64,000 bases of DNA from Desulfonatronospira thiodismutans ASO3-1 (GTDB lineage Bacteria; Desulfobacterota; Desulfovibrionia; Desulfovibrionales; Desulfonatronovibrionaceae), in assembly GCF_000174435.1 (NCBI RefSeq), contig NZ_ACJN02000002.1, forward strand, positions 1 through 64,000, given 5' to 3'. A program made the translations under genes and the position numbers. Shown piece by piece: positions 15,365-36,121 of the stretch. How positions within the stretch are numbered: position 1 is the stretch's first letter; the number at the start of each line of letters is the position of its first letter. The notes under the pieces were generated by a model. It saw only the letters and a program-made list of their open reading frames with translations, was not told the origin of the DNA and searched no databases.

Positions 15365-15429
15365 TTATAAAAATCATCGTAGGGTTTGTCATAAAATAAG
15401 TGTTACATAATGCTTGCATAATCTGGGGG

Positions 15430-15542: not shown

Positions 15543-15587
15543 AATAAGACAAATATAACACTTATATCGTGACAGATCCTTAGCTCT

Positions 15588-15800
15588 CTATTGCTGCTGC
15601 TCCCTGGCCTCTTTCAGCTTACTATCCAGCTCCTTCAGACTGTTCGCCAGACCATTCATAAAGTTATTAGCCTGACTCGCCGGAATAATCAGGGTTCCGG
15701 CTTCAACTGTGGAATCATCTGCTCCACGCTGGGTCAGCATAATCCTCAGGTTGCCATTGGACAAAGTCACTTTACTGATTCCGTCTGCAAATACGTGCAT
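15588..15800 (-). CDS. small protein of unrecognised family (70 aa), cassette copy A
   Basis: MHVFADGISKVTLSNGNLRI start, C-terminal helix LANSLKELDSKLKEAREQQQ. One base separates its ATG from the stop of the NYN gene, and the AAGGAGAG ribosome-binding site lies inside the end of that gene, so expression is coupled. Its protein is identical to the copy at 34466. Location behind a NYN nuclease and a SapC-family gene suggests it serves the same process, but no function is known. Confidence 0.8.
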   Translation of the reverse strand: MHVFADGISKVTLSNGNLRIMLTQRGADDSTVEAGTLIIPASQANNFMNGLANSLKELDSKLKEAREQQQ

Positions 15801-15801
15801 C

Positions 15802-16443: not shown

Positions 16444-17150
16444 ATTTTTATCTTCTCAAAATCCAGTTCTTCCATACTCTCCCAATCCGGCTCCTTATCC
16501 TGTTCAGCCAGTTTCTTAAGCCTTGCCATCTGAGTCAAGGAATAAAGCTGCCCGTACATAACCTTCAATCCGCCGGTATCCCTGAGCTTCACAAAGGCTT
16601 CTCCACTCAGGTCTTTCAACTTGGCTTCGCTCACTTTATACAGGCCACCGTACCCTTCCCAGGGCTCGATCACACCAAACTCAGCAAGCGCAGCACAGGC
16701 CCTGTCAGTTATAGCCCTCTCCCTGGCAATCTTTTCCAGAAAGTCTATTATCTGCTGCATCTTCTGGGTGGGCTTACCCTCTTCTCCGAACATTTGCTCA
16801 CCATCTGGGCCATCCGTAATCAGATCAGAATTCTCGTCTACGCAGACTACTTGTTTTCCTTCCTGAGATTCCGCTAGGTAAAAGGGATGGCCTCTCAGAT
16901 ATGCCGGGATATAGCTGGTCTGCCACTTGCCTTCCTGGGTGACAAACAGGTTCTGTTCTGGTTTTAAGCCCATCACAGCACTCAGTACGTACTTGTTCCT
17001 GGAATAGGTAAAGGCTATTGGAAATGCCGGTACTGCTCTGGGTAATTCAGAGATAACCATGGGAACAGTGGTGCGGGTTTTGGCGTGTTGGTAGTTCTTT
17101 GCCGGATGGAAACTTTTGCCAGCGTGTGTTGTTTTGGATAAGGGTTGCAT
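16440..17150 (-). CDS. SapC-family protein
   Basis: 236 aa. The N-terminal pattern is that of the SapC family (PF07277-type): a VP ... ELPRAVPAFPIAF block, NLFVTQEGKWQTSYIPAYLR and HPFYLAESQEG. The family is named after a gene of the Campylobacter fetus S-layer locus, and members often sit near S-layer or type I secretion genes; its biochemical role is not established. There is no signal peptide. The C-terminal helix-rich part ends MEELDFEKIKI. It is the first gene of the sapC-NYN-small operon; its stop overlaps the next start. The second copy in the window (35318-36027) is frameshifted, and a different SapC subfamily is present as fragments at 26.9-29.7 kb. Confidence 0.82.
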   Translation of the reverse strand: MQPLSKTTHAGKSFHPAKNYQHAKTRTTVPMVISELPRAVPAFPIAFTYSRNKYVLSAVMGLKPEQNLFVTQEGKWQTSYIPAYLRGHPFYLAESQEGKQVVCVDENSDLITDGPDGEQMFGEEGKPTQKMQQIIDFLEKIARERAITDRACAALAEFGVIEPWEGYGGLYKVSEAKLKDLSGEAFVKLRDTGGLKVMYGQLYSLTQMARLKKLAEQDKEPDWESMEELDFEKIKI

Positions 17151-17166
17151 TTGGGTTTTGTAAATG

Positions 17167-17203
17167 AAAAACCCCGCCCTGGCAAGTTGCCGGAGGGCGG
17201 GGT
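17167..17203 (-). terminator. terminator after hicAB
   Basis: Arms ACCCCGCCCT (17171-17180) and AGGGCGGGGT (17194-17203) with an A-run on the left, so T-run on the minus strand. It lies 26 bp after the hicB stop. The left half (AACCCCGCCCTGGCAAG) is also present at 36048-36064, where the duplicated segment ends. Confidence 0.85.
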
Positions 17204-17915: not shown

Positions 17916-18836
17916 TCAAGTCTGCCCCAGGCGCTTCATAGAGTACAAACCCTCGACACCGCCAACCGGAGTAAATTTCCTTGTATCCTTGGACCCCAGT
18001 AAATGCTTGACCTGGTCAAAGACTTCCTGAACAAAATCCTTTCCGCCGATAACCCCGGAATCAGTAAAATACCGGCATCTGTATCTGAAGCGCTCTACCC
18101 TGGATATTTTGTAGCCTTTTTTCCTGGCTTTTTCCACAACCTTTTGATCAATGGTCTTGCCTTTGCCGGCGTCTACTGCTCCGGTCTCGTAAACAAACTG
18201 CCTGTACTTGCGGACAATCTCTTTGGGGTCCAGCTCGTTCCATTCCTTGAGGCCAAAATCAATGTCCAGCAGGCCGTCTTTATTGCCGGTCTGGGTATGG
18301 TAGCCAAGTGAGCTCCAGCGGTAATTCTCCGGTTTCTTCACAATACCTGCACGGATAGGGTTTAAATCCACATAGGCCAGCAAATTAACAAGAGTACTGC
18401 CTTCCTGGACAATCATACTCTTAAACCGGCCACCCCAGAAAAAACCCTGCCGCCTGTGCTTCTTATTATAATACCGGGTAAAATTCTGCTTGATGTCCTT
18501 CACATAGGCCCCAAGGCTGCAAAGCCTCTTCTTGACCTCAGCCATCCGGTCAGTAGGCATCTCGACCTTGTCACCATAATAGTCCTGCCATCTCTTGATG
18601 ATATCTGAATTGGAAATCTCATCCTCAGGGTGCATCCGGGCTACCAGGTGGAAATGATTCCCCATAACTGCGAAACCCAGCACGTCAACAAAGTAAAGCC
18701 TGCTCAGTCTTTTGATAAGCCCCAACAGATAATCCTTGTCAGTGTCTTTAATGGGCAGACCTGACAGAGCAGTACGGGATATGACGTGGTAGACGGTGGC
18801 TTGGTCACTACGGATAAAACGGGCTATGCGGGGCAT
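17916..18836 (-). CDS. REP-associated tyrosine transposase (RAYT), copy 2
   Basis: 306 aa, start MPRIARFIRSDQATVYHVIS with AAAGGAGGT upstream. The HUH motif is GNHFHLVA and the catalytic Tyr lies in FTRYYNKKHRRQGFFWGGRF. The C-terminal half is nearly identical to that of copy 1 (KHLLGSKDTRKFTPVGGVEG), whereas the N-terminal half differs, so the gene looks mosaic. GACTGTCCCC sits at 18913-18922, 77 bp upstream of the start. It should cut single-stranded REP DNA. Confidence 0.92.
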   Translation of the reverse strand: MPRIARFIRSDQATVYHVISRTALSGLPIKDTDKDYLLGLIKRLSRLYFVDVLGFAVMGNHFHLVARMHPEDEISNSDIIKRWQDYYGDKVEMPTDRMAEVKKRLCSLGAYVKDIKQNFTRYYNKKHRRQGFFWGGRFKSMIVQEGSTLVNLLAYVDLNPIRAGIVKKPENYRWSSLGYHTQTGNKDGLLDIDFGLKEWNELDPKEIVRKYRQFVYETGAVDAGKGKTIDQKVVEKARKKGYKISRVERFRYRCRYFTDSGVIGGKDFVQEVFDQVKHLLGSKDTRKFTPVGGVEGLYSMKRLGQT

Positions 18837-18922
18837 GAATTACCTCCTTTAAGGCTGGTGGTTGAGCTGTTGGAAGAATGGATAGCATAAGCTGAAATAA
18901 AACGCAAGAAGAGACTGTCCCC

Positions 18923-19441: not shown

Positions 19442-20377
19442 TTTGGGGGTCGGACCTAACCATCATACTTAAATATCAGGATAAATGTCCCAAAACAGCC
19501 TATTTTCAGACCTTAGAAGCCCCATTTCACCCCCAAAAACATCATTGTAAGCCGATACAGGTTCTTTCAGTGCATATGATCCGGTCTTGTCTACTTCATG
19601 AACCCTGCGGCCGCAAGCTTTTCCGCCGAGCAATTCCTTGATCTTTTCTACAAAAACCTTACAGCCCACGGCAACACTTTCAGTCCAGCCTGGTTGCCTG
19701 GGAGTACGCTCATCTACTGCTGCCTGGACCCATCCAGAGTATACCTTGGATAAATCATCGTCTATATCCAGCAGTCTTTTCAAAAGATCCCTGCTGATAA
19801 TTCGGTATCTTTGCTGCGGCTTGACTATTTCAGGGTATCCCCCATGGCTCCACTCTTTGGGATGCTTAACCACTCTGGCCCTGACCATGTTCATGTCTAT
19901 GTAGACCAGGCACTTTACCAGGTGCTCATCAACATCCACTGCTGTAGCGTGATACCTGTCTTCCCAGAAAGCACCTTTCCGCTTTTTTCTTTGATTGTAT
20001 TCCTGGCCGGTTCTGCCAGCCACCAATTGTAAGGACCTGGGTATAACATCTTTGTCTTCATGGCCGTGTACCAGCAAGTGAATATGATTCGAGGTAACCG
20101 TATAGTTCAATACCTGTAGCCCGTATCTCTTTTTCGCTTCAAATAACCATTTAATCCAAGTTGATCGGTCCTTGGCAAATTTCAGCAGGAATTCCTTTTT
20201 ATGGCATCTATGGGTTATATGCCACAAATGATCAGGCAAAAAATATCTGTTGGCTCTGGGCATATTTGCTTACAACTGGTTTTTGATTATTAAAAAGGGC
20301 ATTCTAAGGCCAATTTTGGGCTCTGTAAAGGCCATTTATTCAATCAATTTAGAACTTTAATTAGGTCCGACCCCAAA
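19442..20377. mobile_element. IS200-like element with inverted ends
   Basis: The left end TTTGGGGGTCGGACCTAA (19442-19459) and right end TTAGGTCCGACCCCAAA (20361-20377) are near-perfect inverted copies and bracket a single Y1 transposase gene. True IS200 elements use subterminal hairpins, so these ends may instead be flanking REP-type sites of a RAYT. Confidence 0.75.
19469..20263 (-). CDS. Y1 (HUH) transposase of the IS200/RAYT type
   Basis: 264 aa, start MPRANRYFLPDHLWHITHRC. It has the HUH motif in SNHIHLLVHG and a candidate catalytic Tyr in EYNQRKKRKGAFWEDRYHAT, then YIDMNMVRARVVKHPKEWSH, the conserved block of Y1 transposases. It differs from the six 304-306-aa RAYTs of this window in sequence and lacks their C-terminal KFTPVGGVEG segment. 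It lies within a pair of inverted GGTCGGACCTAA ends. It probably mobilises this element through single-stranded DNA. Confidence 0.88.
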   Translation of the reverse strand: MPRANRYFLPDHLWHITHRCHKKEFLLKFAKDRSTWIKWLFEAKKRYGLQVLNYTVTSNHIHLLVHGHEDKDVIPRSLQLVAGRTGQEYNQRKKRKGAFWEDRYHATAVDVDEHLVKCLVYIDMNMVRARVVKHPKEWSHGGYPEIVKPQQRYRIISRDLLKRLLDIDDDLSKVYSGWVQAAVDERTPRQPGWTESVAVGCKVFVEKIKELLGGKACGRRVHEVDKTGSYALKEPVSAYNDVFGGEMGLLRSENRLFWDIYPDI

Positions 20378-20716: not shown

Positions 20717-21046
20717 CTAACTGGTTTCAACCATGGCCTTTTCCAACCCGGCTGTAAACCCGTCAATATCCATAAGCACAGACCTCTGCATTCTGCTTCG
20801 CATGGTGCGTCTGAGATCAGCCAGTCTATCTGTATCAGCAGCCAGTTCAGCGGCAATCCGCACATACTCATCCTCACTCCCAGCCCCGAACTCACTAAGC
20901 CCAACAGTCCCAAGAAAAGCATAGCTCTGCCTGCTTACAACCCTGTCCATAGGCATGGTAACTACAGGTACACCCATCCACAGGGCCTCGCAGCTGGTAA
21001 GACCGCCGGTAAAGGGGAAGGGATCTAACAACTTAAAGAATCTGTC
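20717..21046 (-). pseudogene. C-terminal remnant of a SPINDLY/OGT-type (GT41) glycosyltransferase
   Basis: The minus strand reads DRFFKLLDPFPFTGGLTSCE, then ALWMGVPVVTMPMDRVVSRQ and YVRIAAELAADTDRLADLRR. This is the UDP-GlcNAc-binding C-terminal part of GT41 enzymes (DxFPxxGxTTxxEALWMGVPVV). The TPR region and the first half of the catalytic domain are missing; homology stops about 60 bp before the left end of the recombinase module. A complete protein would glycosylate Ser/Thr residues. The remnant was most likely cut by insertion of that module. Confidence 0.8.
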
Positions 21047-21107
21047 CCTTATGTTGCGAGTTCTCGTAACAGGCTGATATGCATGTAAATAAACCGGATT
21101 TGGCGGG

Positions 21108-21146
21108 GTCTTCATATCTTCATGGATACCAGGGGGATATGAAGAC
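21108..21146. repeat. inverted repeat near left end of RIT-like element
   Basis: GTCTTCATATC (21108-21118) and GATATGAAGAC (21136-21146) form an 11-bp inverted repeat with a 17-bp loop, directly next to a GGCGGGGT octamer (21102-21109). It may be a recombinase-binding site. Confidence 0.6.
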
Positions 21147-21233
21147 ATGCAGCATAATTATTTTGGGCTGGCAACATAATTTTTGGCCTTGGAATATAGT
21201 ACCACTTGTTTGGACTCAGCCTGCATATGGGCC

Positions 21234-22250
21234 TTACAGGCTGTCCAGCCAGTCCAGAGTCTCCTGCTCTTTTTCCCAGTCCAGAAGTTCATCCAGTTTG
21301 GGGTCCTGGGTCTGGTTCTGGGTGTATTCAATGAACTTCTGCTGCAGCTCTCGTTTGCGATTCAGACTCAGCTTGAGATAGACCATGGTGGATTGCAGGT
21401 TTTCATGTCCCAGGTGGTTTTTGATGTCTGTCAGGCTGAAGCCGGTCCCGAGCATGTTGATGGCACATGAATGCCTGAAGCAATGCACCGGATTCAATCC
21501 CTGGAATCGGTTTTCTTCAAACACCAGGCTCAGATATTTCCTGCATAACCGGTAGATGCCGTTTCTGGTAAAGCCTTGCCTGCGCTGATTTAAAAACAGG
21601 GTGTTCTGATGCAAGGGTTTGGGCCTGGGGCGGTATTTCTGGATATACATGGACATGAGCTGGACTGTCTTGGGCCAGAGCTCGATTTGGCGGTAGCGGT
21701 TGCCCTTGCCCAGGATGGCCAGGGTTTTCTTGTGCGGGTCAAAGTAGTCCAGACGTAGCGAGGCTGATTCCTCGGCCCTGGCCCCGGAGTTGTAGAGCAG
21801 GTGGATGATGGTATAATCCCGGAAAGCTCCGCTTTTCTTGAGATTTATACTATCCAGGACCAGCAAAACCTCTTCATGGGTGAGAAAGGCAGCCAGTTTT
21901 TTGGGGAAGCGCTTCTGAGGGATGGAGATAATCCGGTCTGCCAGCAGTTTATGTTCGGGATAGAGAAAACGGATCATTCTGGCCAGGGACTTGAATACCG
22001 CCAGTCTGTGGCCTCTGGTGCGAGCACTGTTATTTCTGCCGCTCTCCAGATGGTCTAAAAAATCCAGGATGAGCTGGGTGCTTAAATGCTCAATCTCCAG
22101 GGAGTTGATATCCCGGCCAAGGGTTTTGGAGGCAAAGGGCAAAAACAGGCTGAAGGTATGGCGGTAGGCCAGGATGGTGTTGGAGCTGACGCCCTTGGTT
22201 CTTGGCAGGTACTGATCAAAGAAGGTATGCAGACAGGAGCCCAGATTCAT
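21234..22250 (-). CDS. tyrosine recombinase, third of the trio
   Basis: 338 aa. The catalytic elements are an Arg in NSGARAEESASLRL, a Lys in ILGKGNRYRQIEL, His-x-x-Arg in HCFRHSCAINML, a His in LGHENLQSTM and the nucleophile Tyr in MVYLKLSL. The start ATG overlaps the stop of the previous recombinase (4 bp) with GGAGG five bases upstream. An N-terminal SAM-like core-binding domain spans about residues 5-100. It acts with its two partners in site-specific recombination. Confidence 0.9.
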   Translation of the reverse strand: MNLGSCLHTFFDQYLPRTKGVSSNTILAYRHTFSLFLPFASKTLGRDINSLEIEHLSTQLILDFLDHLESGRNNSARTRGHRLAVFKSLARMIRFLYPEHKLLADRIISIPQKRFPKKLAAFLTHEEVLLVLDSINLKKSGAFRDYTIIHLLYNSGARAEESASLRLDYFDPHKKTLAILGKGNRYRQIELWPKTVQLMSMYIQKYRPRPKPLHQNTLFLNQRRQGFTRNGIYRLCRKYLSLVFEENRFQGLNPVHCFRHSCAINMLGTGFSLTDIKNHLGHENLQSTMVYLKLSLNRKRELQQKFIEYTQNQTQDPKLDELLDWEKEQETLDWLDSL

Positions 22251-23215
22251 ATGTCCTCCAGTCGCGAGATGGCAAAGTCCACAAATCCCTGGCGCTTCTC
22301 GGCGTCCATGACCTTGAGATACAGGGCGGTGTAGCGGTACTTGCTGTGGCCCATATACGCGGATAGTACTGGCAGAACAGCCTGGGGGTCCCGGCCCCGG
22401 TCCCGGGCCGCCTTGAGGGTGTTGACTGCAAAGGAATGCCTCAGGCTGTGCGGAGTGGGATGGCCAAAGACCATGTTGGCTATAATTCTTCTTGGGGCAT
22501 GGATTCCCGTTTCCCGCACAGCCCTGTGAAAGACGGGATACACCTGATTGGTTCTCAGGGCGTTTTTAAATCCTGGCAGGAGATAAGGGCTTGTGCAGCA
22601 CAGGGCGTCTCGAAGACTCAGGAAGTTATCCAGTTCTTTTTGGGCCTCCCAAGGAATGGGAATCAAGCGGTCCTTATGGAACTTGGTCTTTTGGATATAG
22701 ATAGTGCCTTGCACAGGATCAAAATGTTCAAGCCCCAGGTTGAGTGGTTCGGACATGCGCAGCCCGCACCTGGCCTGCAACATTAGAGCTATGTATATGC
22801 CCATATCCACCAGGAAGCACTTTTCCCTGCTGCGCCGGATCTGACTTTGCACCCCCTGCAGGAGCTGCTCCACCTGCTCCGGGGAGAAAATGAAAGGGAT
22901 AAAGGCGTTTTCAGTCTTGGCCGGGAGATCCTGGACCGGATTATGTTCACAGCAGCCTGTCCGGTGCAGATAAGCAAAGAAGTTGCGTGTGGCCTGAATG
23001 ACATTGTTGACGGTTGCAGGCGAGCCCTTGATTCCATCACGGAAGCCCAGAAAAAAGGCAGGCGTGAGGTCTTCCCACCCCCGGGCATTATCCCGGACAT
23101 AATAATCCAGTGCTCTCAGCTGGTTTGCCAGGCTCTTGTTCACATATCCAAGTTCCTTGCGGTACTGGATAAAATCATTTAGATGTCCGGCCAGAAAGCT
23201 CTCAAACTTTTTCAT
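22247..23215 (-). CDS. tyrosine recombinase, second of the trio
   Basis: 322 aa from the ATG at 23215 (MKKFESFLAGHLNDFIQYRK); a GTG five codons earlier is possible. Catalytic residues are seen in QARCGLRMSEPLNL, HSLRHSFAVNTL, MGHSKYRYTALYLKV. The start lies 14 bp inside the end of the preceding recombinase gene, so the three are translated together. The N-terminal domain is of the SAM-like type. All active-site elements are intact. Confidence 0.9.
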   Translation of the reverse strand: MKKFESFLAGHLNDFIQYRKELGYVNKSLANQLRALDYYVRDNARGWEDLTPAFFLGFRDGIKGSPATVNNVIQATRNFFAYLHRTGCCEHNPVQDLPAKTENAFIPFIFSPEQVEQLLQGVQSQIRRSREKCFLVDMGIYIALMLQARCGLRMSEPLNLGLEHFDPVQGTIYIQKTKFHKDRLIPIPWEAQKELDNFLSLRDALCCTSPYLLPGFKNALRTNQVYPVFHRAVRETGIHAPRRIIANMVFGHPTPHSLRHSFAVNTLKAARDRGRDPQAVLPVLSAYMGHSKYRYTALYLKVMDAEKRQGFVDFAISRLEDI

Positions 23216-24386
23216 TGAACAATACCTCACGCATCAGTCTGGTGTGTACATGCAGATATCTCTTGCTGGTCTTGATGATGTCATGACCCAGCATCTCTTT
23301 GATTTCAAAGATGGACGCCTCCGCCTGCAACAGGTTCTGGGCATAGGTATGGCGCAGCCAGTAGGCAGATCCTTTGATCCCGGCCCGGCGGAAGCAGGCG
23401 CTGATATTCTGGCTCACGGTCAAAGGAGTGAGTGGTCCGTAAGGTGTCCTGGTATTGCAAAGAAGAAACCTGTGCCCGGGATCCATTGGTCTATTCCAGG
23501 CAAGGTATGCGGCCAGAGCCCTGAGTGCCCCCTGAGGCAGGGGAAGTTTGGCTGGAGAAGAGTTTTTTCTGTCCGGCAGGTATATCAGCTTGTCCCGGAA
23601 TAAAATGTCATCCAGGGTCACCCGGCAGATTTCCCCCGGCCGAAGCCCCAGGGAGTAGGCCAGATGGATCATGGCATAAGACCGCAGTCCCCCGGGGCGA
23701 TCCTTGTCAATGCTTTGAAACAGGGTCTTTATTTGTTCCAAAGTAAGAAACCTGGGTGGTCTGCTCTGGGCATACACCGGCGGCCCCTGGATCAAAGCGC
23801 TCAAATCTTTCTTCAGGATTTGTCTTTCCAGGTACAGGTAGCGTAAAAAACCTCTAAGGCCTGATCGTTCATGTATTCTGGTTTCAGGGGCGTATTTCCT
23901 GTTTCTCTCAGCCAGAAAAGCATCCATATGTAAGACATCCAGGTCTTTAAGCTCCATGCCCTGGTTTTGCAGGTAGTCATTAAGTGCGGATAGAGTCCCC
24001 CGGACCCGGTAGATCTGAACATGTCCCACCTGGCGGGTTTGGGTGTAGAATTGGAGATACTCTTCATAAAGCCTGGGCAGCTGGGCTCTTTGGAGCTTGC
24101 TCCTGCCTCTGCCTTCAGGCAAAGCACCCGGCGGCAAGCAGATTATGCCATTCTGGTGCAGGTAGCGCATGAATCCGCGCAGGACAAACCCGGCATACTT
24201 AACCTGGACATGGTCCTTAAATGCCTGCAAGGTATCCCGGGCAAAGGTACGCTCCCAGGGGATGCTATTTAGCACCACAAAGTCCAGCAGCCGGTTTAGA
24301 ATTTGGCTGTGTTGGGCCATTGTCCATGGAGCATACCCGGCATTGTTCATCCATTCCAGGTAGTCCTGGATCTGCCTGTCCAGCAT
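23202..24386 (-). CDS. tyrosine recombinase, first of the trio
   Basis: 394 aa. The active site is visible as LGLRPGEICRVTLDD (Arg), YWLRHTYAQNLL (His/Arg), LGHDIIKTSKRYLHV (His, Tyr). The N-terminal half is longer than in its partners and holds two core-binding-like segments (~5-90 and ~125-200). It begins 5 bp after the CHC2 gene stop. With the two following genes it makes the recombinase trio. Confidence 0.9.
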   Translation of the reverse strand: MLDRQIQDYLEWMNNAGYAPWTMAQHSQILNRLLDFVVLNSIPWERTFARDTLQAFKDHVQVKYAGFVLRGFMRYLHQNGIICLPPGALPEGRGRSKLQRAQLPRLYEEYLQFYTQTRQVGHVQIYRVRGTLSALNDYLQNQGMELKDLDVLHMDAFLAERNRKYAPETRIHERSGLRGFLRYLYLERQILKKDLSALIQGPPVYAQSRPPRFLTLEQIKTLFQSIDKDRPGGLRSYAMIHLAYSLGLRPGEICRVTLDDILFRDKLIYLPDRKNSSPAKLPLPQGALRALAAYLAWNRPMDPGHRFLLCNTRTPYGPLTPLTVSQNISACFRRAGIKGSAYWLRHTYAQNLLQAEASIFEIKEMLGHDIIKTSKRYLHVHTRLMREVLFNEKV

Positions 24387-24391
24387 AACCT

Positions 24392-24688
24392 CTACCTGCC
24401 CAGCCTTTGTTCCATGTCCTGCAAAAACTCCACTGCCTCCCGGAAATTTAAGCCCTTGACCACCATGACCAGGTCAATGGGGTTGAAATTTCTTTCGCAA
24501 CGAAAACACCTGGCCAGGTTGGTTCTGGGATTACAGGCGGTCAAAAACTCGGAGCAAAGCGGGCACAGAAAGCGCAAGTATCCGTCCCTGACTTTGGAGG
24601 GCATATCCAGGATATGGACAATAACGTCATTGACCAAAACCTTGTTTCGCAACCGCTGCAGTTCCTCTCTGGAATATCTTTGGGCCAT
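24392..24688 (-). CDS. CHC2-type zinc-finger protein (primase-like)
   Basis: 98 aa, start MAQRYSREELQRLRNKVLVN with GAGGAGGAAATC upstream. The C-P-L-C ... C-F-R-C pattern with FNPIDLVMVVKGLNFREAVE following is the zinc-binding domain of DnaG-type primases, here standing alone without the TOPRIM catalytic domain. Stand-alone CHC2 proteins probably bind single-stranded DNA. It is coupled to the recombinase trio (5-bp gap), which suggests a role in recombination or element replication. Confidence 0.82.
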   Translation of the reverse strand: MAQRYSREELQRLRNKVLVNDVIVHILDMPSKVRDGYLRFLCPLCSEFLTACNPRTNLARCFRCERNFNPIDLVMVVKGLNFREAVEFLQDMEQRLGR

Positions 24689-24790
24689 GATTTCCTCCTC
24701 GAGATAAGTGTCAGTGATTAAGATTTGACTTCCCTATCACCACCCCGGCAGTGGAGGCTATCGAGTCCTACCTTTGCAATCAGGACCAAA

Positions 24791-25237
24791 TCATGCGCAA
24801 CCCATTGATACTTCTGTGATTTTTACGATTTTCGCGTCCATCTTTGCAATCAGCAGATCCTGGACAGAAATCATGGCGTAAGTTCCTGATATGTCACTGT
24901 TTTCAGCTGATAACGCGTCCAGCTTTGCAATTTCGCTGGAAATGGATTCGATGGCCCTCCTGCGCCGGTTTCTATATCGCTGTTTTTCCCGGTTGCTTCG
25001 GGTATAGCCAGGGTTGTTTTCCCTGTAGTTATTCCAGTAGTCAGGGTTCCTGGCACTCCAGCGTTGGTCTGAAGCCCTTTTATTGAGCCTGTAGGCCTGG
25101 TCCACCTGCATTTTCTTTCTTTGCCACCGGCGCTTGCGCGCTCTCTGGCAATCAGGCTTGGAGCAATACTTCTGGTCGGGGTTACGTTTGGTAAGGGGAA
25201 AAAGACACCGGCAGTATCTGCAGCGTTTTTTGGACAT
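24791..25237 (-). CDS. Cys-rich basic DNA-binding-like protein of the RIT-like element
   Basis: 148 aa. The N-terminus MSKKRCRYCRCLFPLTKRNP followed by KYCSKPDCQRARKRRWQRKK gives a CxxC ... CxxxxC zinc-finger-like motif and then a strongly basic helix with repeated W-x-x-x-NPDYW / NPGY steps. The C-terminal third is a helix ending VQDLLIAKMDAKIVKITEVS. I recognise it as a type often found next to mobile-element recombinases but cannot name a family. A hairpin masks its ribosome-binding site (25238-25271). A 102-bp gap separates it from the CHC2 gene. Confidence 0.65.
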   Translation of the reverse strand: MSKKRCRYCRCLFPLTKRNPDQKYCSKPDCQRARKRRWQRKKMQVDQAYRLNKRASDQRWSARNPDYWNNYRENNPGYTRSNREKQRYRNRRRRAIESISSEIAKLDALSAENSDISGTYAMISVQDLLIAKMDAKIVKITEVSMGCA

Positions 25238-25271
25238 ACAACCTCCAGGAGCAGTTACTCCAAGAGGTTGT
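25238..25271 (-). promoter_or_regulatory. hairpin sequestering the RBS of the Cys-rich gene
   Basis: ACAACCTC (25238-25245) pairs with GAGGTTGT (25264-25271). On the minus-strand transcript the 3' arm contains GGAGGTTGT, the Shine-Dalgarno sequence, which is immediately followed by the ATG at 25237. The structure would block ribosome binding, so entry into the element's operon may be controlled at translation. Confidence 0.55.
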
Positions 25272-25308
25272 AGTTTTGGAAAGAAGAAAAATGAATGAAA
25301 AGAATTCA

Positions 25309-25516
25309 GGCGGGGTCAAGAAAAAATCAGGGATCAGTGCTGAGTACTGGAGTCTGACCACTGAACATTCCGGGAACTGCCTCAAGGGCGGGGTATATGT
25401 CTATACCTGGTGAGGCGGGGTGGATTAATTCTGTTGAGCCGAAACTTCCCTTAGGGCATTCAATCAGGGCGGGGTATGCAGGGTATGTTAAAAAAAATAC
25501 TAAAGGCAGGCGGGGT
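25309..25516. repeat. five spaced GGCGGGGT octamers
   Basis: Exact copies start at 25309, 25387, 25414, 25468 and 25509, three of them followed by AT (GGCGGGGTAT); a sixth copy is at 21102 on the other side of the element. Their position between the first gene and the right boundary suggests recombinase-binding sites. Confidence 0.65.
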
Positions 25517-25539
25517 ATAGCGGGATACTGGCAACATAA

Positions 25540-25872
25540 CTAAACTCGCAACATAATGTCCCTACTTTCTTTCTGTCCTACCCCTGCTGGGATGTCCTCG
25601 TTTTTGCTGTGTGCATCGATAGCCATCCACTGGATCTCATCTAAATTAATTCCAGTACCAATACCAGGCAGGGCAAGATATCTGTATGGTGCGCCACGGG
25701 ATACCAGTTCGGCCAAGGTCTGATTGAAACTTATGGCTGGTTTTTTGTTTGCGTTTTGGACATAGAAGCCAACAGCTCCGCCGTGTGCAAGTAGAGTCAA
25801 AGACTGCAAAAGTGATCCGAGACTTAGATCCGGCAAAGCTTTGTTTAAATCTGCTATTTTAACTGGACCATT
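25540..25872 (-). pseudogene. C-terminal remnant, possibly of a methyltransferase-regulatory-domain protein
   Basis: The minus strand is open from about 25872 and reads NNGPVKIADLNKALPDLSLG, SLLQSLTLLAHGGAVGFYVQ and YRYLALPGIGTGINLDEIQW. The ALPGxGTGIxLDE end resembles the C-terminus of proteins with the methyltransferase regulatory domain, but I am not sure. No start codon fits: the frame runs into the end of the RAYT at 25874. The 3' end coincides with the right boundary of the RIT-like element, so it has been cut on both sides. Confidence 0.5.
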
Positions 25873-25873
25873 A

Positions 25874-26794
25874 TTAAGTTTGTCCCAATCGCTTCATAGA
25901 ATACAAACCCTCAACACCACCAACGGGAGTAAACTTCCGTTCATCCTTGGAGCCCAGCAAGTGCTTGACCTGGTCGAATACTTCCTGAACAAAATCTTTC
26001 CCGCCGATCACCCCGGAGTCAGTAAAATACCGGCATCTGTACCTGAACCGATCAGACCTGGATATCTTATAGTTCTTCTTTCTGGCTTTTTCCACGATCT
26101 TTTTATCCATGACCTTGCCTTTACCCGCATCCACAGCTCCGGTTTCGTATACGAATTGTCTGTACTTGCGAACTATCTCTGATGGATTGAACTCATTCCA
26201 TTCTTTCATCCCAAAGTCTATGGACAGAAGGCCGTCCTTATTCCCAGTCTGGGTATGGTAGCCCAGGGAACACCAGCGGTAGTCTTCCGGCTTCTTTACT
26301 ATCCCTGCCCTTATGGGGTTCAAATCGATATAGGCCAGCATATTCACCAGGGTATGGCCTTCCTGAACAATCATAGACTTAAACCGCTCACCCCAGAAAA
26401 AGCCGCGCCTGTTATGCCTCTTATTGTAATACCGGGAAAAGGTCTGCTTGATTTCCCGCACAAACTCAGAAAGGTCAGTCCATTTTTTGCTGAACTTTTC
26501 CATATCCTGATCCCCAAAATGGACATCCTCTCCGTATCGTCTGGCAAATCTTTCTTTGACTTCATCTCTGTAAGCATACTCATGAGGATAGACTTTTACA
26601 GCCAGGTGCCAGTGGTTCCCCATAATTGCGAAACCAAGGATATCCACAAAATAGATCCTGCTGAAATATCTGATTATATCCAGCAGCTTGTCTTTCTCAA
26701 TATCGCCAAGTGGAAAGCCGGATAGGGCGGTTCGGGATATGATGTGGTAAATAGCCGGTCTGTCCGGCAGAGTGAATCTGGCATTTCTGGGCAT
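25874..26794 (-). CDS. REP-associated tyrosine transposase (RAYT), copy 3
   Basis: 306 aa, start MPRNARFTLPDRPAIYHIIS, with AAGGAGGTAAGCC before the ATG. HUH motif GNHWHLAV; Tyr region FSRYYNKRHNRRGFFWGERF. CGTCTGTCCC lies at 26874-26883, 80 bp upstream. Through about residue 200 it is identical to copy 5 (28500-29414). Beyond that it diverges (NEFNPSEIV here, NEFDPKEIV there) and shares its NEFNPSEIV sequence with copy 4, a sign of gene conversion. The gene is intact. Confidence 0.92.
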   Translation of the reverse strand: MPRNARFTLPDRPAIYHIISRTALSGFPLGDIEKDKLLDIIRYFSRIYFVDILGFAIMGNHWHLAVKVYPHEYAYRDEVKERFARRYGEDVHFGDQDMEKFSKKWTDLSEFVREIKQTFSRYYNKRHNRRGFFWGERFKSMIVQEGHTLVNMLAYIDLNPIRAGIVKKPEDYRWCSLGYHTQTGNKDGLLSIDFGMKEWNEFNPSEIVRKYRQFVYETGAVDAGKGKVMDKKIVEKARKKNYKISRSDRFRYRCRYFTDSGVIGGKDFVQEVFDQVKHLLGSKDERKFTPVGGVEGLYSMKRLGQT

Positions 26795-26909
26795 GGCTTA
26801 CCTCCTTGAGATGAGGGATTGGTGTTGATGGAAGGATACTTACCCGAGATGGAATCAAAAGTAAAGTATATTTCGTCTGTCCCTTTTCTTTTCTCTTTCT
26901 TTTCTCCTC

Positions 26910-27038
26910 CCTTACTATTTGGGGCAGCTCCTGGAGGAATACCGGGCAGAAGTTCTCTTTGGCTGCAAAGTGGTAGTTACTTACCTGAGTGAATTTTATG
27001 TCCTGGGATTTGTCCAGGGCCTGGGTGTTTTGGTACAT
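26910..27038 (-). pseudogene. sapC N-terminal fragment (short), copy 1
   Basis: From the ATG at 27038 the minus strand reads MYQNTQALDKSQDIKFTQVS, NYHFAAKENFCPVFLQELPQ, IVRE, and then passes into the upstream flank of the RAYT at 25874. The longer fragment at 28126-28435 shows how the gene should continue (VREYFICFPNNQ). The gene was cut after about 43 codons. The frame stays open into the RAYT flank, giving a meaningless 137-codon ORF (26697-27110). Confidence 0.75.
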
Positions 27039-27102
27039 GCCACGGGCTCCATATTGTTGTTGAATGAATGAGATTATTACTACATGAGCTTGGAAGAGAT
27101 GT

Positions 27103-28017
27103 CTATCCAAGCCGCTTCATGGAATAAACCCCATCCACCCCGCCTACGGGAGTAAATTTCCGCTCATCCTTCGACCCCAGCAAGTGCTTAACCTGGTCGA
27201 ATACTTCCTGAACAAAATCTTTCCCGCCTATCACCCCGGAATCAGTAAAATACCGGCATTTGTACCTGAACCGGTCGGTCCTGGATATTTTGTAGCCTTT
27301 CTTACGGGCTTTTTCCACGATCTTTCTGTCCATGACTTTGCCTTTACCCGCATCCACAGCTCCGGTTTCGTAAACAAACTGCCTGTACTTGCGAACTATC
27401 TCTGATGGATTGAATTCATTCCATTCCTTCATGCCAAAATCTATGGACAGAAGGCCGTCCTTATTCCCAGTCTGGGTATGGTAGCCCAGGGAACACCAGC
27501 GGTAATCCTCCGGCTTCTTTACTATTCCAGCCCTTATGGGGTTCAAATCGATATAAGCCAACATATTAACCAGAGTCCTTCCCTCCTGTACTATCATGGA
27601 TTTAAACCGCTCACCCCAGAAAAAGCCGCGCCTGCTATGCCTCTTATTATAATACCTGGAAAAACTTTGCTTGATCTCCCGTACAAACTCAGAAAGGTCA
27701 GTCCATTTTTTGCTGCACTTTTCATATTCTTTGTCGCCAAAGTAAATATCATCACCGTATCGGTCTGAAAACCTTTCCTTTACTTCATCTCTTTCGGCGT
27801 ATTCTTGGGGGTATACTCTTACAGCTAAGTGCCAATGATTCCCCATAACTGCGAATCCCAGCACGTCTACAAAATAGATCTTACTGAAATATCTTATTAT
27901 ATCCAGCAGCTTGTCTTTTTCAATATCTCCAAGCGGAAAGCCGGGCAGGGCGGTTCTGGAAATTACGTGATATACAGTAGGTCTGTCAGGCAGTGTGAAT
28001 CTGGCGTTTCTGGGCAT
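27103..28017 (-). CDS. REP-associated tyrosine transposase (RAYT), copy 4
   Basis: 304 aa, MPRNARFTLPDRPTVYHVIS. HUH motif GNHWHLAVRVYP; Tyr in FSRYYNKRHSRRGFFWGERF. The C-terminus ends GGVDGVYSMKRLG. GTCTGTCCC lies at 28110-28118, 93 bp upstream. The protein is identical to copy 6 at 29723-30637. Its stop is about 65 bp from the start of the short sapC fragment lying downstream on the same strand. It should recognise REP-type DNA. The unusual point is that RAYTs are usually single-copy. Confidence 0.92.
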   Translation of the reverse strand: MPRNARFTLPDRPTVYHVISRTALPGFPLGDIEKDKLLDIIRYFSKIYFVDVLGFAVMGNHWHLAVRVYPQEYAERDEVKERFSDRYGDDIYFGDKEYEKCSKKWTDLSEFVREIKQSFSRYYNKRHSRRGFFWGERFKSMIVQEGRTLVNMLAYIDLNPIRAGIVKKPEDYRWCSLGYHTQTGNKDGLLSIDFGMKEWNEFNPSEIVRKYRQFVYETGAVDAGKGKVMDRKIVEKARKKGYKISRTDRFRYKCRYFTDSGVIGGKDFVQEVFDQVKHLLGSKDERKFTPVGGVDGVYSMKRLG

Positions 28018-28125
28018 TGTTGGCCTCCAATGGTCAGAGGTTTAAGTTGTGAACTAAGACAAAAGGTATGATCCCTGGTTGTGGGCTGTCAAGAAATAAT
28101 GTAGATTTTGTCTGTCCCTAATTCT

Positions 28126-28435
28126 TTTCTCCTTGAGCAGAGTCTTCCTTTTTGGCCAGTATAAACGGGTATCTTCTTATGTATGCTGGGATGTATTCAG
28201 CTTGCCAGCTTCCGTCTTCTGATACGTACTGGTTAGTGTTCTGCTGAAAGCCCAAGAGGGCGTGGGGCAGGTCTGTCTGATTATTTGGGAAGCAGATAAA
28301 GTATTCCCTTACTACCTGGGGCAGCTCCTGGAGGAAGACCGGGCAGAAGTTTTCTTTGGCTGCAAAGTGGTAGTTACTTACCTGAGTGAATTTTATGTCC
28401 TGGGATTTGTCCAGGGCCTGGGTGTTTTGGTACAT
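28126..28435 (-). pseudogene. sapC N-terminal fragment (long)
   Basis: From the ATG at 28435 the minus strand gives about 103 codons of SapC-family sequence: LQELPQVVREYFICFPNNQT, LPHALLGFQQNTNQYVSEDG and WQAEYIPAYIRRYPFILAKK. It then reads EDSAQGEKN and stops inside the upstream flank of RAYT copy 4. The last ~130 residues of a normal SapC are missing. It belongs to a different SapC subfamily from the genes at 16440 and 35318. The 5' region is shared exactly with the two short fragments. Confidence 0.82.
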
Positions 28436-28499
28436 GCCACGGGCTCCATATTGTTGTTGAATGAATGAGATTATTACTACATGAGCTTGGAAGAGATGT

Positions 28500-29414
28500 C
28501 TATCCAAGCCGCTTCATGGAATAAGTTCCCTCAACCCCGCCTACGGGAGTAAATTTCCTTGTATCCTTAGACCCCAGCAGGTGTTTGACCTGATCAAATA
28601 CCTCCTGAACAAAGTCTTTCCCGCCGATCACCCCGGAGTCAGTAAAATACCGGCATCTGTACCTGAACCGGTCAGACCTGGATATTTTAAAGCCTTTCTT
28701 CCGGGCTTTTTCCACGATCTTCTTATCCATGACCTTGCCCTTCCCCGCATCCACAGCGCCTGTTTCATATACAAACTGTCTGTACTTGCGGACAATCTCC
28801 TTGGGATCAAACTCGTTCCATTCCTTCATGCCGAAATCTATGGACAGAAGGCCGTCCTTATTCCCAGTCTGGGTATGGTAGCCCAGGGAACACCAGCGGT
28901 AATCCTCCGGCTTCTTTACTATCCCGGCCCTTATGGGGTTCAAATCGATATAGGCCAGCATATTCACCAGGGTATGGCCTTCCTGAACAATCATAGACTT
29001 AAACCGCTCACCCCAGAAAAAGCCGCGCCTGTTATGCCTCTTATTGTAATACCGGGAAAAGGTCTGCTTGATTTCCCGCACAAACTCAGAAAGGTCAGTC
29101 CATTTTTTGCTGAACTTTTCCATATCCTGATCCCCAAAATGGACATCCTCTCCGTATCGTCTGGCAAATCTTTCTTTGACTTCATCTCTGTAAGCATACT
29201 CATGAGGATAGACTTTTACAGCCAGGTGCCAGTGGTTCCCCATAATTGCGAAACCAAGGATATCCACAAAATAGATCCTGCTGAAATATCTGATTATATC
29301 CAGCAGCTTGTCTTTCTCAATATCGCCAAGTGGAAAGCCGGATAGGGCGGTTCGGGATATGATGTGGTAAATAGCCGGTCTGTCCGGCAGAGTGAATCTG
29401 GCATTTCTGGGCAT
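28500..29414 (-). CDS. REP-associated tyrosine transposase (RAYT), copy 5
   Basis: 304 aa, MPRNARFTLPDRPAIYHIIS start. Identical to copy 3 for roughly the first 200 residues. The C-terminal part (NEFDPKEIV ... KKGFKISRSDRF ... KDTRKFTPVGGVEGTYSMKR) instead matches the older copies at 368 and 17916 in several positions, so it is a mosaic. HUH motif GNHWHLAV and Tyr region YYNKRHNRRG are intact. CGTCTGTCCC is at 29494-29503, 80 bp from the start. Confidence 0.92.
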   Translation of the reverse strand: MPRNARFTLPDRPAIYHIISRTALSGFPLGDIEKDKLLDIIRYFSRIYFVDILGFAIMGNHWHLAVKVYPHEYAYRDEVKERFARRYGEDVHFGDQDMEKFSKKWTDLSEFVREIKQTFSRYYNKRHNRRGFFWGERFKSMIVQEGHTLVNMLAYIDLNPIRAGIVKKPEDYRWCSLGYHTQTGNKDGLLSIDFGMKEWNEFDPKEIVRKYRQFVYETGAVDAGKGKVMDKKIVEKARKKGFKISRSDRFRYRCRYFTDSGVIGGKDFVQEVFDQVKHLLGSKDTRKFTPVGGVEGTYSMKRLG

Positions 29415-29529
29415 GGCTTACCTCCTTGAGATGAGGGATTGGTGTTGATGGAAGGATACTTACCCGAGATGGAATCAAAAGTAAAGTATATTTCGTCTGT
29501 CCCTTTTCTTTTCTCTTTCTTTTCTCCTC

Positions 29530-29658
29530 CCTTACTATTTGGGGCAGCTCCTGGAGGAATACCGGGCAGAAGTTCTCTTTGGCTGCAAAGTGGTAGTTAC
29601 TTACCTGAGTGAATTTTATGTCCTGGGATTTGTCCAGGGCCTGGGTGTTTTGGTACAT
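29530..29658 (-). pseudogene. sapC N-terminal fragment (short), copy 2
   Basis: An exact repeat of the fragment at 26910-27038, 2,620 bp further on: MYQNTQ start at 29658, SapC-like to ELPQIVRE, then the flank of RAYT copy 5. Part of the tandem duplication. Confidence 0.75.
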
Positions 29659-29722
29659 GCCACGGGCTCCATATTGTTGTTGAATGAATGAGATTATTAC
29701 TACATGAGCTTGGAAGAGATGT

Positions 29723-30637
29723 CTATCCAAGCCGCTTCATGGAATAAACCCCATCCACCCCGCCTACGGGAGTAAATTTCCGCTCATCCTTCGACCCCAG
29801 CAAGTGCTTAACCTGGTCGAATACTTCCTGAACAAAATCTTTCCCGCCTATCACCCCGGAATCAGTAAAATACCGGCATTTGTACCTGAACCGGTCGGTC
29901 CTGGATATTTTGTAGCCTTTCTTACGGGCTTTTTCCACGATCTTTCTGTCCATGACTTTGCCTTTACCCGCATCCACAGCTCCGGTTTCGTAAACAAACT
30001 GCCTGTACTTGCGAACTATCTCTGATGGATTGAATTCATTCCATTCCTTCATGCCAAAATCTATGGACAGAAGGCCGTCCTTATTCCCAGTCTGGGTATG
30101 GTAGCCCAGGGAACACCAGCGGTAATCCTCCGGCTTCTTTACTATTCCAGCCCTTATGGGGTTCAAATCGATATAAGCCAACATATTAACCAGAGTCCTT
30201 CCCTCCTGTACTATCATGGATTTAAACCGCTCACCCCAGAAAAAGCCGCGCCTGCTATGCCTCTTATTATAATACCTGGAAAAACTTTGCTTGATCTCCC
30301 GTACAAACTCAGAAAGGTCAGTCCATTTTTTGCTGCACTTTTCATATTCTTTGTCGCCAAAGTAAATATCATCACCGTATCGGTCTGAAAACCTTTCCTT
30401 TACTTCATCTCTTTCGGCGTATTCTTGGGGGTATACTCTTACAGCTAAGTGCCAATGATTCCCCATAACTGCGAATCCCAGCACGTCTACAAAATAGATC
30501 TTACTGAAATATCTTATTATATCCAGCAGCTTGTCTTTTTCAATATCTCCAAGCGGAAAGCCGGGCAGGGCGGTTCTGGAAATTACGTGATATACAGTAG
30601 GTCTGTCAGGCAGTGTGAATCTGGCGTTTCTGGGCAT
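29723..30637 (-). CDS. REP-associated tyrosine transposase (RAYT), copy 6
   Basis: 304 aa with the same protein sequence as copy 4. HUH motif GNHWHLAVRVYP and Tyr region YYNKRHSRRG are intact. GTCTGTCCC is at 30730-30738, 93 bp upstream, and the flank ends at about 30751, where a truncated integrase begins. The perfect identity with copy 4 points to a very recent duplication. Confidence 0.92.
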   Translation of the reverse strand: MPRNARFTLPDRPTVYHVISRTALPGFPLGDIEKDKLLDIIRYFSKIYFVDVLGFAVMGNHWHLAVRVYPQEYAERDEVKERFSDRYGDDIYFGDKEYEKCSKKWTDLSEFVREIKQSFSRYYNKRHSRRGFFWGERFKSMIVQEGRTLVNMLAYIDLNPIRAGIVKKPEDYRWCSLGYHTQTGNKDGLLSIDFGMKEWNEFNPSEIVRKYRQFVYETGAVDAGKGKVMDRKIVEKARKKGYKISRTDRFRYKCRYFTDSGVIGGKDFVQEVFDQVKHLLGSKDERKFTPVGGVDGVYSMKRLG

Positions 30638-30751
30638 TGTTGGCCTCCAATGGTCAGAGGTTTAAGTTGTGAACTAAGACAAAAGGTATGATCCCTGGTT
30701 GTGGGCTGTCAAGAAATAATGTAGATTTTGTCTGTCCCTAATTCTTTTCTC

Positions 30752-30901
30752 CAGCATCCAGATCCACTTCGGACCAAGGCAGGTTTACAGCCTCGGATTT
30801 CCTGGCTCCGGTCATGATCAGGAACCTGATAATATCCGGCACCACTGGGCTGTTGCAGTTATTCAACTCATCCAGAACCCTTTCCAGCTCTTCCGGGTGC
30901 G
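30752..30901 (-). pseudogene. integrase (tyrosine recombinase), middle fragment
   Basis: The minus strand reads HPEELERVLDELNNCNSPVV, then PDIIRFLIMTGARKSEAVNL and PWSEVDLDAG. GARKSEAVNLPWSEVDL is the box-I region with the first catalytic Arg of tyrosine recombinases. The left side is cut by the RAYT copy 6 flank, so the HxxR and Tyr regions are lost. The right side is cut by the IS21 element; the rest of the gene lies at 33626-34096. Confidence 0.82.
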
Positions 30902-33625: not shown

Positions 33626-34096
33626 CGCATCCGGGCTTAGAAACCTCTCCTGACGTCCTGCATCGTGCATCCTGGAAACCTTGCGCGTCGGAGAGCTATC
33701 GATGTAATCCCACTTTTCAGCCGTGTTCAAAATGTGCTTGATTATCGCCATATACCGGTTTACCGTACCCGGCTTAAAGCCTTGGTTAACCATAGCGCTC
33801 TGGAAATCAATCAGATCGCCAGGTTTGAACTCGTTTAGCTTCTTGTGGCCCCAGATGCGTATCATACGCTTTTCGATGGTATGCTGGTCAAACTCCCAGC
33901 TGCGTTTGTAGCTTTTCACATACGGGATGTATTTTTCCCGTACGAACTTTTTGAAGGTGGGTGTGCTCTTTACCTTTTCCAGCTGTTCCAGAGGATTGAA
34001 GCCCATCTGGGCCTGGCTGCGCATAACACTGGCTTTCTCCCGGGCCTGTTCAAGCCCCAGGCTGTCGGTAGAGCCAAGCCTTGCCCTGCCTGATCC
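33626..34096 (-). pseudogene. integrase (tyrosine recombinase), N-terminal fragment
   Basis: The minus strand encodes GSGRARLGSTDSLGLEQARE, TFKKFVREKYIPYVKSYKRS, then FKPGTVNRYMAIIKHILNTA and RQERFLSPDA. This is the arm and SAM-like core-binding region of a phage-type integrase. It is interrupted by the IS21 element at exactly the codon before HPEELERVL of the fragment at 30752-30901. A start codon is unclear: the open frame extends to 34405 through REP sequences, which are unlikely to be coding. Confidence 0.82.
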
Positions 34097-34216
34097 GGCT
34101 GGATTTATCCCGGCAACGCAGGTAATACGTGGCCCTGCCGGATAAGGTGAGGCCAAGGTTGCTGGAAGCTCTGTGTGAAGCTGTGAAGGCCATTCTTGAG
34201 GGTGTGAGGGTAAAAA

Positions 34217-34242
34217 GCCAGCAGGGGATATCCCCTGCTGGC
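34217..34242 (-). terminator. terminator of the duplicated cassette, copy B
   Basis: The same 26-bp palindrome (arms GCCAGCAGGGGAT) and A5 run as at 15334-15364. Confidence 0.7.
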
Positions 34243-34307
34243 TTATAAAAATCATCGTAGGGTTTGTCATAAAATAAGTGTTACATAATGCTTGCATAAT
34301 CTGGGGG

Positions 34308-34420
34308 TTTATCGCTCCCACGCTCTGTCCCGCCAGGGCGGGAGAGCGTAGCCCGACCGCTCCTGCGGTCATTGTGGACGCTGAGCGTCCAGGGAATGTT
34401 CCCACGCAGAGCGTGGGAAC
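34308..34420. repeat. REP hairpin cluster, copy B
   Basis: Exact counterpart of 15430-15542, with the GTTCCCACGC-stem REP at 34398-34420. Confidence 0.75.
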
Positions 34421-34465
34421 AATAAGACAAATATAACACTTATATCGTGACAGATCCTTAGCTCT

Positions 34466-34678
34466 CTATTGCTGCTGCTCCCTGGCCTCTTTCAGCTTAC
34501 TATCCAGCTCCTTCAGACTGTTCGCCAGACCATTCATAAAGTTATTAGCCTGACTCGCCGGAATAATCAGGGTTCCGGCTTCAACTGTGGAATCATCTGC
34601 TCCACGCTGGGTGAGCATAATCCTCAGGTTGCCATTGGACAAAGTCACTTTACTGATTCCGTCTGCAAATACGTGCAT
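34466..34678 (-). CDS. small protein of unrecognised family (70 aa), cassette copy B
   Basis: Protein identical to that at 15588-15800. The ATG lies one base after the NYN stop, with AAGGAGAG upstream. The identity of the two copies, while sapC beside them decays, may mean only that the duplication is recent. Confidence 0.8.
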   Translation of the reverse strand: MHVFADGISKVTLSNGNLRIMLTQRGADDSTVEAGTLIIPASQANNFMNGLANSLKELDSKLKEAREQQQ

Positions 34679-34679
34679 C

Positions 34680-35321
34680 TTAACTCTCCTTATTGTTTAA
34701 TTGGGTACTTATAAAATCCGCCTGCTCCGAAAGCTCTATTGAGACAGGAGCATGCATATTATCCAGGCATACCTGCACCCCTTCTTGCCGAACCATCTCC
34801 ATTGCCGGAACCAGGTCTGTTCTGTCAGTGATCAGAACAAACATATCCCCGGCTTTTCTGGCTGCAAGGGTAACCATATCCAGGGCCATTTTTACGCTTA
34901 TCTGGGTGGTTTCGCTTCCTGGGCGGATATCGCTGTCTGACAGGTCATCCACGGTTATCTCCTTTTTAAGAAGTGGAGACACTTTAGAGCCGACAATATT
35001 CCAGTCCCTGCCGTTCCAATCCATATTTCCCAGTCTCAGACAGAAATTTGGAGCATGGCGCAGACCCTCAAACAGCTGGTGTCTTAACCTTGCACTCTCC
35101 AGCCTGGAGAAGTCTATCTCCTTACCGTTTAAGGGAGATGTTCCCCTGGCCTGCAAGGGACGGCAGTCGTAATAATAGATGCGCACCAGGTAGTCGTTTG
35201 GTCTCAGGTGCTTCTGGCAGTACTCCCGGATCTCTCTTGGCTTGTATAGAAAATGGTTTCTCTCCAGCACCCTGCGGCGCATGAACATTCCGTCTGTGAA
35301 AATGATTACTTTGCGGGTCAT
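34680..35321 (-). CDS. NYN-domain (LabA/DUF88-type) protein, cassette copy B
   Basis: 213 aa, differing from the 15802-16443 protein at only a handful of residues (for example GNMDWNGRDWNIV against GSMEWNGRDWNVV). FTDG, KMALDM and TDRTDLVP, the predicted metal-site motifs, are all kept. The start overlaps the sapC stop by four bases. A predicted RNase of unknown target. Confidence 0.8.
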   Translation of the reverse strand: MTRKVIIFTDGMFMRRRVLERNHFLYKPREIREYCQKHLRPNDYLVRIYYYDCRPLQARGTSPLNGKEIDFSRLESARLRHQLFEGLRHAPNFCLRLGNMDWNGRDWNIVGSKVSPLLKKEITVDDLSDSDIRPGSETTQISVKMALDMVTLAARKAGDMFVLITDRTDLVPAMEMVRQEGVQVCLDNMHAPVSIELSEQADFISTQLNNKES

Positions 35322-36027
35322 ATCTTTATCCTATCAAAATCCAGCTCTTCCATACTCTCCCAATCCGGCTCCTTATCCTGTTCAGCCAGTTTCTTCAACC
35401 TTGCCATCTGAGTCAAGGAATAAAGCTGCCCGTACATCACTTTCAACGCGCCTTTATCCCTGACCTGCACAAAGGCCTCTCCACTCAGATCTTTCAGCTT
35501 ACCCTCGCTGATTTTATACAGACCACCGTATCCCTCTCCCAGGGCTCTATCATTCCAAGCTCACTTAGCGTAGCACAGGCCCTGTCAGTAACAGCCCTCT
35601 CTTTGGCAATCTTTTCCAGAAAGTCGATTATCTGCTGCATCTTCTGGGTGGGTTTGTCGTCTTCACCAAACATTGGCTCTCCGCCAATATCCGTGATTAA
35701 CCCGGAGTTCTCGTCTACGCAGACCACCTGCTTACCTTCCTGGGATTCCACCAGGTAGAAGGGATGTGCTCTTAGATAAGCTGGGATATAGCTTGTTCGC
35801 CACTTGCCTTCCTGGGTGACATACAGGTTCTGTTCAGGTTTTAAGTCCATCAGAGCAGAAAGGATGTATTTGTCTCTGGATACGGTGAAGGCTATTGGGA
35901 AAGCCGGCACTGCTCTGGGTAGTTCAGAGATAACCAATGGCACAGTAGTGCGGGTTTTGGCGTGTTGGTGATTTTGAGCAGGATAGAAGCTTTTGCCTGC
36001 GTGTCTGGTCGTGGATAGTGGTTGCAT
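35318..36027 (-). pseudogene. SapC-family gene, frameshifted (cassette copy B)
   Basis: From the ATG at 36027 (MQPLSTTRHAGKSFYPAQNH) the SapC reading frame is intact to IEPWE. There two bases have been gained relative to copy A (GGGAGAGGGATACGG against GGGAAGGGTACGG), which shifts the frame to a stop at 35494. The normal C-terminus (KLKDLSGEAFVQVRD ... MEELDFDRIKI) is still readable in another frame and ends at the ATGA overlap with the NYN gene. It otherwise resembles the intact copy at 16440-17150. Confidence 0.85.
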
Positions 36028-36121
36028 GGGTAGGTTGTAAATGAAAAACCCCGCCCTGGCAAGTCTCGCAGAATAAGCATAAAGGCCTTGCCTGTCAGGT
36101 TCCAATCGTAGTCAACATCCC

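Follow-up and report, generated by a model that had tools for sequence, protein, structure and literature searches.

Tandem RAYT genes in Desulfonatronospira thiodismutans as a probable product of mobile-unit insertion and later homologous exchange

RAYTs, enzymes that cut DNA, are commonly given as examples of domesticated transposases, and evidence that their genes move is reported to be lacking (PMC8266576). The genome of Desulfonatronospira thiodismutans ASO3-1 (G000; 5 contigs, 4.1 Mb) raises the question of why such a gene should stand four times in a row. In the window, the first 64,000 nucleotides of contig NZ_ACJN02000002.1, the open reading frame list places four intact RAYT genes (c3 to c6) of 304-306 aa on the minus strand, arranged head to tail over 25874-30637, as a sequence-only reading of this DNA had stated. 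The array and its internal duplication are far beyond chance. Our analysis suggests that the array would exist because the RAYT gene here behaves as a compact mobile element whose ends are fixed, one that copies itself into new places, also beside itself, and then recombines with its sisters.

All parts of the array lie on the minus strand, and each gene is preceded by a leader with the left-end motif GGGACAG. RAYT c6 (304 aa, 29723-30637) has its leader at 30638-30752 (GGGACAG at 30732-30738), which forms the outer 5' end of the duplication and adjoins a fragment of an integrase (tyrosine-recombinase) gene at 30753-30895, limits approximate. The leader of c5 (304 aa, 28500-29414) occupies 29415-29528 (GGGACAG at 29497-29503) and is followed by ~codons 1-44 of sapC at 29529-29722. 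The leader of c4 (304 aa, 27103-28017) lies at 28018-28132 (GGGACAG at 28112-28118) and adjoins a sapC gene truncated after ~codon 101 (28133-28499), while that of c3 (306 aa, 25874-26794) lies at 26795-26908 (GGGACAG at 26877-26883) and adjoins one truncated after ~codon 44, which retains the upstream region of sapC (26909-27102). The inter-gene spaces of the array are thus truncated sapC (PF07277, Pfam). The longer fragment is identical to an intact sapC that sits, with the same upstream sequence, 3' of another RAYT at G000:C3:25498-26409. On its right, c3 is flanked by an unrelated gene fragment and then the end of an RIT element (25540-25873).

Nucleotide alignment bore out the 2.6-kb direct duplication: 25890-28132 and 28510-30752 are offset by 2,620 bp and are 97.7% identical over 2,243 aligned bp. 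The mismatch map revealed no difference in 1,826 bp (30752-28927 against 28132-26307), followed by 52 differences within the final 417 bp, in c3/c5, beyond which the right flanks are unrelated. The outer border of the duplicated block (30752) and its inner border (28132) both coincide exactly with a RAYT left end. Copies c4 and c6 are identical, as had been noted, and the identity includes leader and right flank. The reported identity of c3 and c5 over ~200 residues holds for the protein, to ~residue 203, but the DNA is identical only to codon 163; c3 equals c5 up to +487 and at +488 switches to the 3' half and flank of another RAYT. Since the right flank moves along with the switch, the gene conversion proposed for this pair is only partly borne out, and a crossover-like exchange with another RAYT copy fits better; on the sequence evidence, the switch would be a recombination with exchange of flank and not a two-sided conversion. 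A separate duplicated block in the window (15148-17187 and 34026-36064, 92% identical) contains sapC and a gene with an NYN domain, next to giant secreted proteins rich in repeats.

The proteins belong to the RAYT fold. In an alignment of 20 family members, H61/H63 and Tyr155 (YIDLNP) are invariant, the tyrosine standing in a Y---NP context. The Pfam match to PF01797 is above the cut-off and is split where extra helices lie, while the score for the NCBIfam equivalog REP_Tyr_transpos (57.8-63.6 bits) is below the cut-off of 80, as for a divergent long form. A PDB sequence search gave no match; in a fold search, the AlphaFold model (pLDDT 80) had the RAYT-REP complex 4ER8 as its best PDB match (E 1.3e-6, TM 0.73 over the target). 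Following the HUH strand 61-68, the model has two additional helices (76-87 and 95-104), an insertion between beta3 and alphaC as in TnpAREP subclass 2.3. It also has an 8-residue loop (23-30) that may correspond to the 10-aa insertion of that subclass between beta1 and alphaA. A C-terminal tail of ~140 residues follows the Tyr helix. These features fit subclass 2.3, which the accessible passages of Quentin et al. 2018 (PMC6006769) place mainly in Chromatiales and Alteromonadales and describe as multicopy, its spread being already suspected. The family here shares with that description the class 2 Y---NP motif, the additional helices that separate the HUH strand from the following helix of the core, the long tail, the absence of GTAG REPs and the many copies per genome. 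In contrast to it, copies here reach 94-100% identity, and we did not find element ends, unit size, junctions or tandem arrays described in those passages. The view that RAYTs are usually single applies to the classical groups but not to subclass 2.3, known from the same passages to be multicopy.

A genome-wide search of the 5 contigs found 20 full-length family members and ~35 partial matches. The two further copies noted in the first 19 kb are present on the minus strand, c1 at 368-1399 (GGGACAG left end at 1368-1374) and c2 at 17916-18836 (left end at 18915-18921; the c2 unit occurs again at G000:C3:14342), but the full-length total is 20 and not six. At 19469-20263 there is a further RAYT, from a different subfamily. 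Paralogs have a dN/dS of 0.03-0.08, and by this measure the family is under strong purifying selection. Pairwise comparison revealed right-flank types common to copies with different 5' halves.

Several further observations concern these genes and their surroundings. Among distant relatives (family alignment A1), synonymous codon identity at RAYT residues 106-125 is 0.53-0.58 against a mean of 0.40, near the point of 5'/3' shuffling. RAYT pseudogenes at six loci (L053, L054, L042, L044, L045 and L052) carry nested palindromes of 35-270 bp (CCGGTTAAAC...GTTTAACCGG and related ones), which recur at a small set of positions (~+360, +772, +794, +813 and +850) with differing contents, for example at G000:C1:11686-11769, C3:300021-300124 and C4:52984-53087. 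The RAYTs of L072, L074 and L075, 70-88% identical to c5, come from short contigs whose bins are assigned to Bacteroidales, Halanaerobiaceae and Thermoplasmata, which may reflect mis-binning or horizontal transfer. At 9396-9500, and also at L040, L041 and L052, pairs of GGGGACAGTCCCC-like palindromes ~87-90 bp apart lie near large secreted-protein genes.

The copies share a bounded unit. Wherever flanks differ, pairwise homology begins at -92..-115 from the ATG and ends at +902..+912, which defines a unit of ~1.0 kb with its left end ~100 bp 5' of the ATG and its right end at or just past the last codons (...YSMKRLG). In the pairs L016/L019, L017/L019, c2/L014 and L011/L020, the ORF is 94-97% and the leader 93-98% identical, and both flanks are at 13-32%, the random level. 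Genes this similar between flanks at random level on both sides indicate that neutral flank decay cannot be the cause. The unit also occurs beyond this genome: between G020:C9 and G025:C1:2812584, which come from two species in a different family within the order, -102..+915 is shared at 93% with unrelated flanks.

GGGACAG is found at all left ends in G000, ~85-110 bp 5' of the ATG, in most cases after a short purine-rich stretch. Exact signatures of the left-end types number 29 in the genome against 0-1 for a reversed control pattern, and ~13 of the 29 are solo or short. The most frequent leader 7-mer in relatives with 47-88% protein identity is GGGACAG (13 of 19 loci), which also precedes the gene in most fetched relatives. 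An inverted right terminal repeat (CTGTCCC/CTGCCCC/CTGCACC) at +946 was seen only in L014, L017 and L020 among the 20 own copies. Two candidate signals were rejected: a conserved left-end hairpin with compensatory arms, plausible on visual inspection, was dropped, since only type 2 copies folded into a clear stem and z-scores against shuffles were not significant; and synonymous-codon conservation is not raised at the coding end, as a DNA signal for the right end within it would require.

A 292-bp repeat, X, which starts with GGGACATCCATG and ends with GTCCC, was found at L059 (3261-3546), L119 (827-1121), L115 and L117. It is preceded by GGGCAAAAA, as are some RAYT left ends, is cut by RAYT left ends in G020 and G025, and is possibly a non-autonomous relative. 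L059 also carries a ~155-bp long-hairpin repeat (4771-4923), of which some 100 are listed across genomes of that locus's genus.

Left ends join the interiors of sapC, an IS21 transposase, an RIT recombinase, a T1SS gene and others, of which intact twins exist elsewhere at up to 100% identity. The bases beside the left end differ at every junction, indicating that there is no fixed target. In eight copies the interrupted sequence has an intact twin, and among the matches listed none showed that sequence continuing beyond the right end of the copy. Nor did target duplications, clean empty sites or excised circles come to light; a clean empty site proposed from G020 against G025 was discarded, as synteny there is broken by other fragments. 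In the cluster at C3:275.8-288 kb, five copies that are 98-100% identical share the same left end and terminate 3' at +181, +226, +1038 and +1371, the +181 and +226 ends being followed immediately by a further left end. Five 3'-truncated RAYT fragments in the fetched loci adjoin a left end (in G000, G020 and G029), and a right end adjoining a 5'-truncated RAYT fragment was found in 0 cases. Copies c2 and L011 have 3.3 kb of downstream DNA in common. A tally of which end the fragments had lost gave no tidy pattern, the fragments being degraded on both sides.

The left ends also receive another element. At 21042-25562 (minus strand), an RIT element consisting of three tyrosine recombinases in a row and two small ORFs, with TTATGTTGCGAGTT ends, is inserted at a GGGACA left-end site. 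RIT ends number 23 genome-wide, and RIT copies sit at GGGACA sites, many of which are RAYT left ends; the RIT element thus appears to use the RAYT end as a target. The sequence AACTCGCAACATAA, considered as a RAYT target, was ruled out, being the end of an RIT element inserted at GGGACA. Because of this origin, four more pairs of a truncated fragment and a left end, which are RIT ends, were left out of the polarity count.

Taken together, we consider it probable that the array formed by mobile-unit insertion and later homologous exchange. The HUH/Tyr enzyme would cut at the unit ends and insert the unit with low specificity for the target. Starting from an ancestral pair of RAYT and sapC, more RAYT left ends would have arrived inside sapC, at ~codons 44 and 101. 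RecA-type exchange between near-identical genes would then have duplicated the block and given c3 a different 3' half together with its right flank. The junctions of sapC codon ~44 and ~101 with a left end are impossible by homologous exchange, so that an end-specific joining step is needed, whereas the block doubling and the c3 switch with its flank fit exchange between near-identical RAYT genes. However, insertion predicts that the target resumes at the right end, and its failure to appear among the matches listed argues against simple insertion. Copying that is one-ended and led by the left end, on the model of IS91/ISCR or Helitrons, would explain the missing right targets, the solo ends and the variable 3' ends in one step: the enzyme would fix and nick the left end, and the displaced strand would be copied over a variable length (20 nt to >3 kb) and joined to arbitrary DNA, the right end being only a frequent stop or closed by homology in a resident RAYT sister. 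The precise left ends with varying 3' ends in one cluster, the downstream DNA common to c2 and L011, the one-way order of truncated unit and left end, and the truncated repeat X in G020 and G025 all agree with such copying. We nevertheless place it second, as a tentative and rather unlikely mode for this lineage, because right ends recur at +902..+915 in copies with unrelated flanks and because the polarity counts are low and in part not independent; in addition, 5'-truncated fragments exist too, and the right remainder of RAYT-in-RAYT insertions could go by ordinary direct-repeat recombination.

Two other explanations are less probable. Spread and stacking without recent transposition, solely by RecA-type unequal exchange and segmental duplication in repeat-rich islands, would account for the mosaic 5'/3' halves, the c3/c5 switch and the shared right flanks, and it agrees with islands rich in duplicated fragments and with tandem units in G025 that begin and end within RAYT genes. 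It seems improbable to us, since exchange cannot repeatedly join sapC codon 44/101, IS21, RIT and RAYT interiors to one left-end position, nor move an exact-ended unit between unrelated flanks or species. That the assembler made the second unit is more improbable still. The 1,826 bp of complete identity between units and the contig ends in or near RAYT copies (C3 begins inside one) had given reason for this worry, which is weakened by the 52 base differences in c3/c5, by outer flanks and junctions that differ, and by the one-contig relative G025, which has a RAYT tandem duplication of its own (2,065 bp, 97.8%). Returning to insertion followed by exchange, the 20 full-length copies, the bounded unit in unrelated flanks, the low dN/dS and the dispersal between species uphold the suggestion that the family still spreads; as judged from sequence, it appears to be, or recently to have been, a mobile element and not a domesticated gene.

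The classical REPtron, E. coli TnpAREP (4ER8), has the same catalytic fold and HUH-Tyr core, but is a single copy with GTAG-tagged hairpins on its flanks, and evidence that this gene moves is reported to be absent (PMC8266576). In the present genome there are 20 copies of a dispersed unit; GT[AG]G-tagged REP palindromes were not found at the flanks, and the left ends are GGGACAG without a significant hairpin. TIRYT/TIRtron (Di Nocera et al. 2013, PMC3733652) resembles the family in a terminal motif of the GGGGWSAS type close 5' of a RAYT-like gene, here GGGGACAG/AGGGACAG; GGGGACAG fits GGGGWSAS in type 2 and some gamma copies, and alpha/beta copies have one mismatch. In contrast to TIRtrons, the inverted right-end copy was seen in only 3 of the 20 own copies, and the whole gene unit is dispersed. 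IS200/IS605 elements are likewise small multicopy units with a Y1 HUH transposase only, from which the family differs in having no Y---Q motif, tnpB or fixed left-junction target sequence, and in end hairpins that are weak or absent. IS91/ISCR and Helitrons are alike in pattern only (a precise leading end, a variable far end and captured neighbours); they belong to another HUH subfamily, and the likeness to rolling-circle transposition seen here is the polarity pattern. Multicopy spread of subclass 2.3 was proposed earlier (PMC6006769). Relative to open-access PMC text, we regard as new the precise unit with its mapped ends, found dispersed between species and between flanks that are not related. 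New on the same basis are the structure of the array with its sapC pieces, the exchange of 3' halves that yields mosaic genes and the polarity of the truncations, although earlier reports elsewhere are possible.

This study also bears on the RAYT enzyme group. With its mapped ends, its 20 copies and its recent local duplications, the lineage is a natural substrate for testing RAYT cutting and joining, and offers a route to test how solo RAYT ends could become REP-like repeats. One-ended movement, if true, would stitch together captured gene fragments and tandem arrays and leave isolated left ends behind as REP-like repeats. Should assays confirm the polar arrays, these would point to a transposition mode not described for the RAYT enzyme group.
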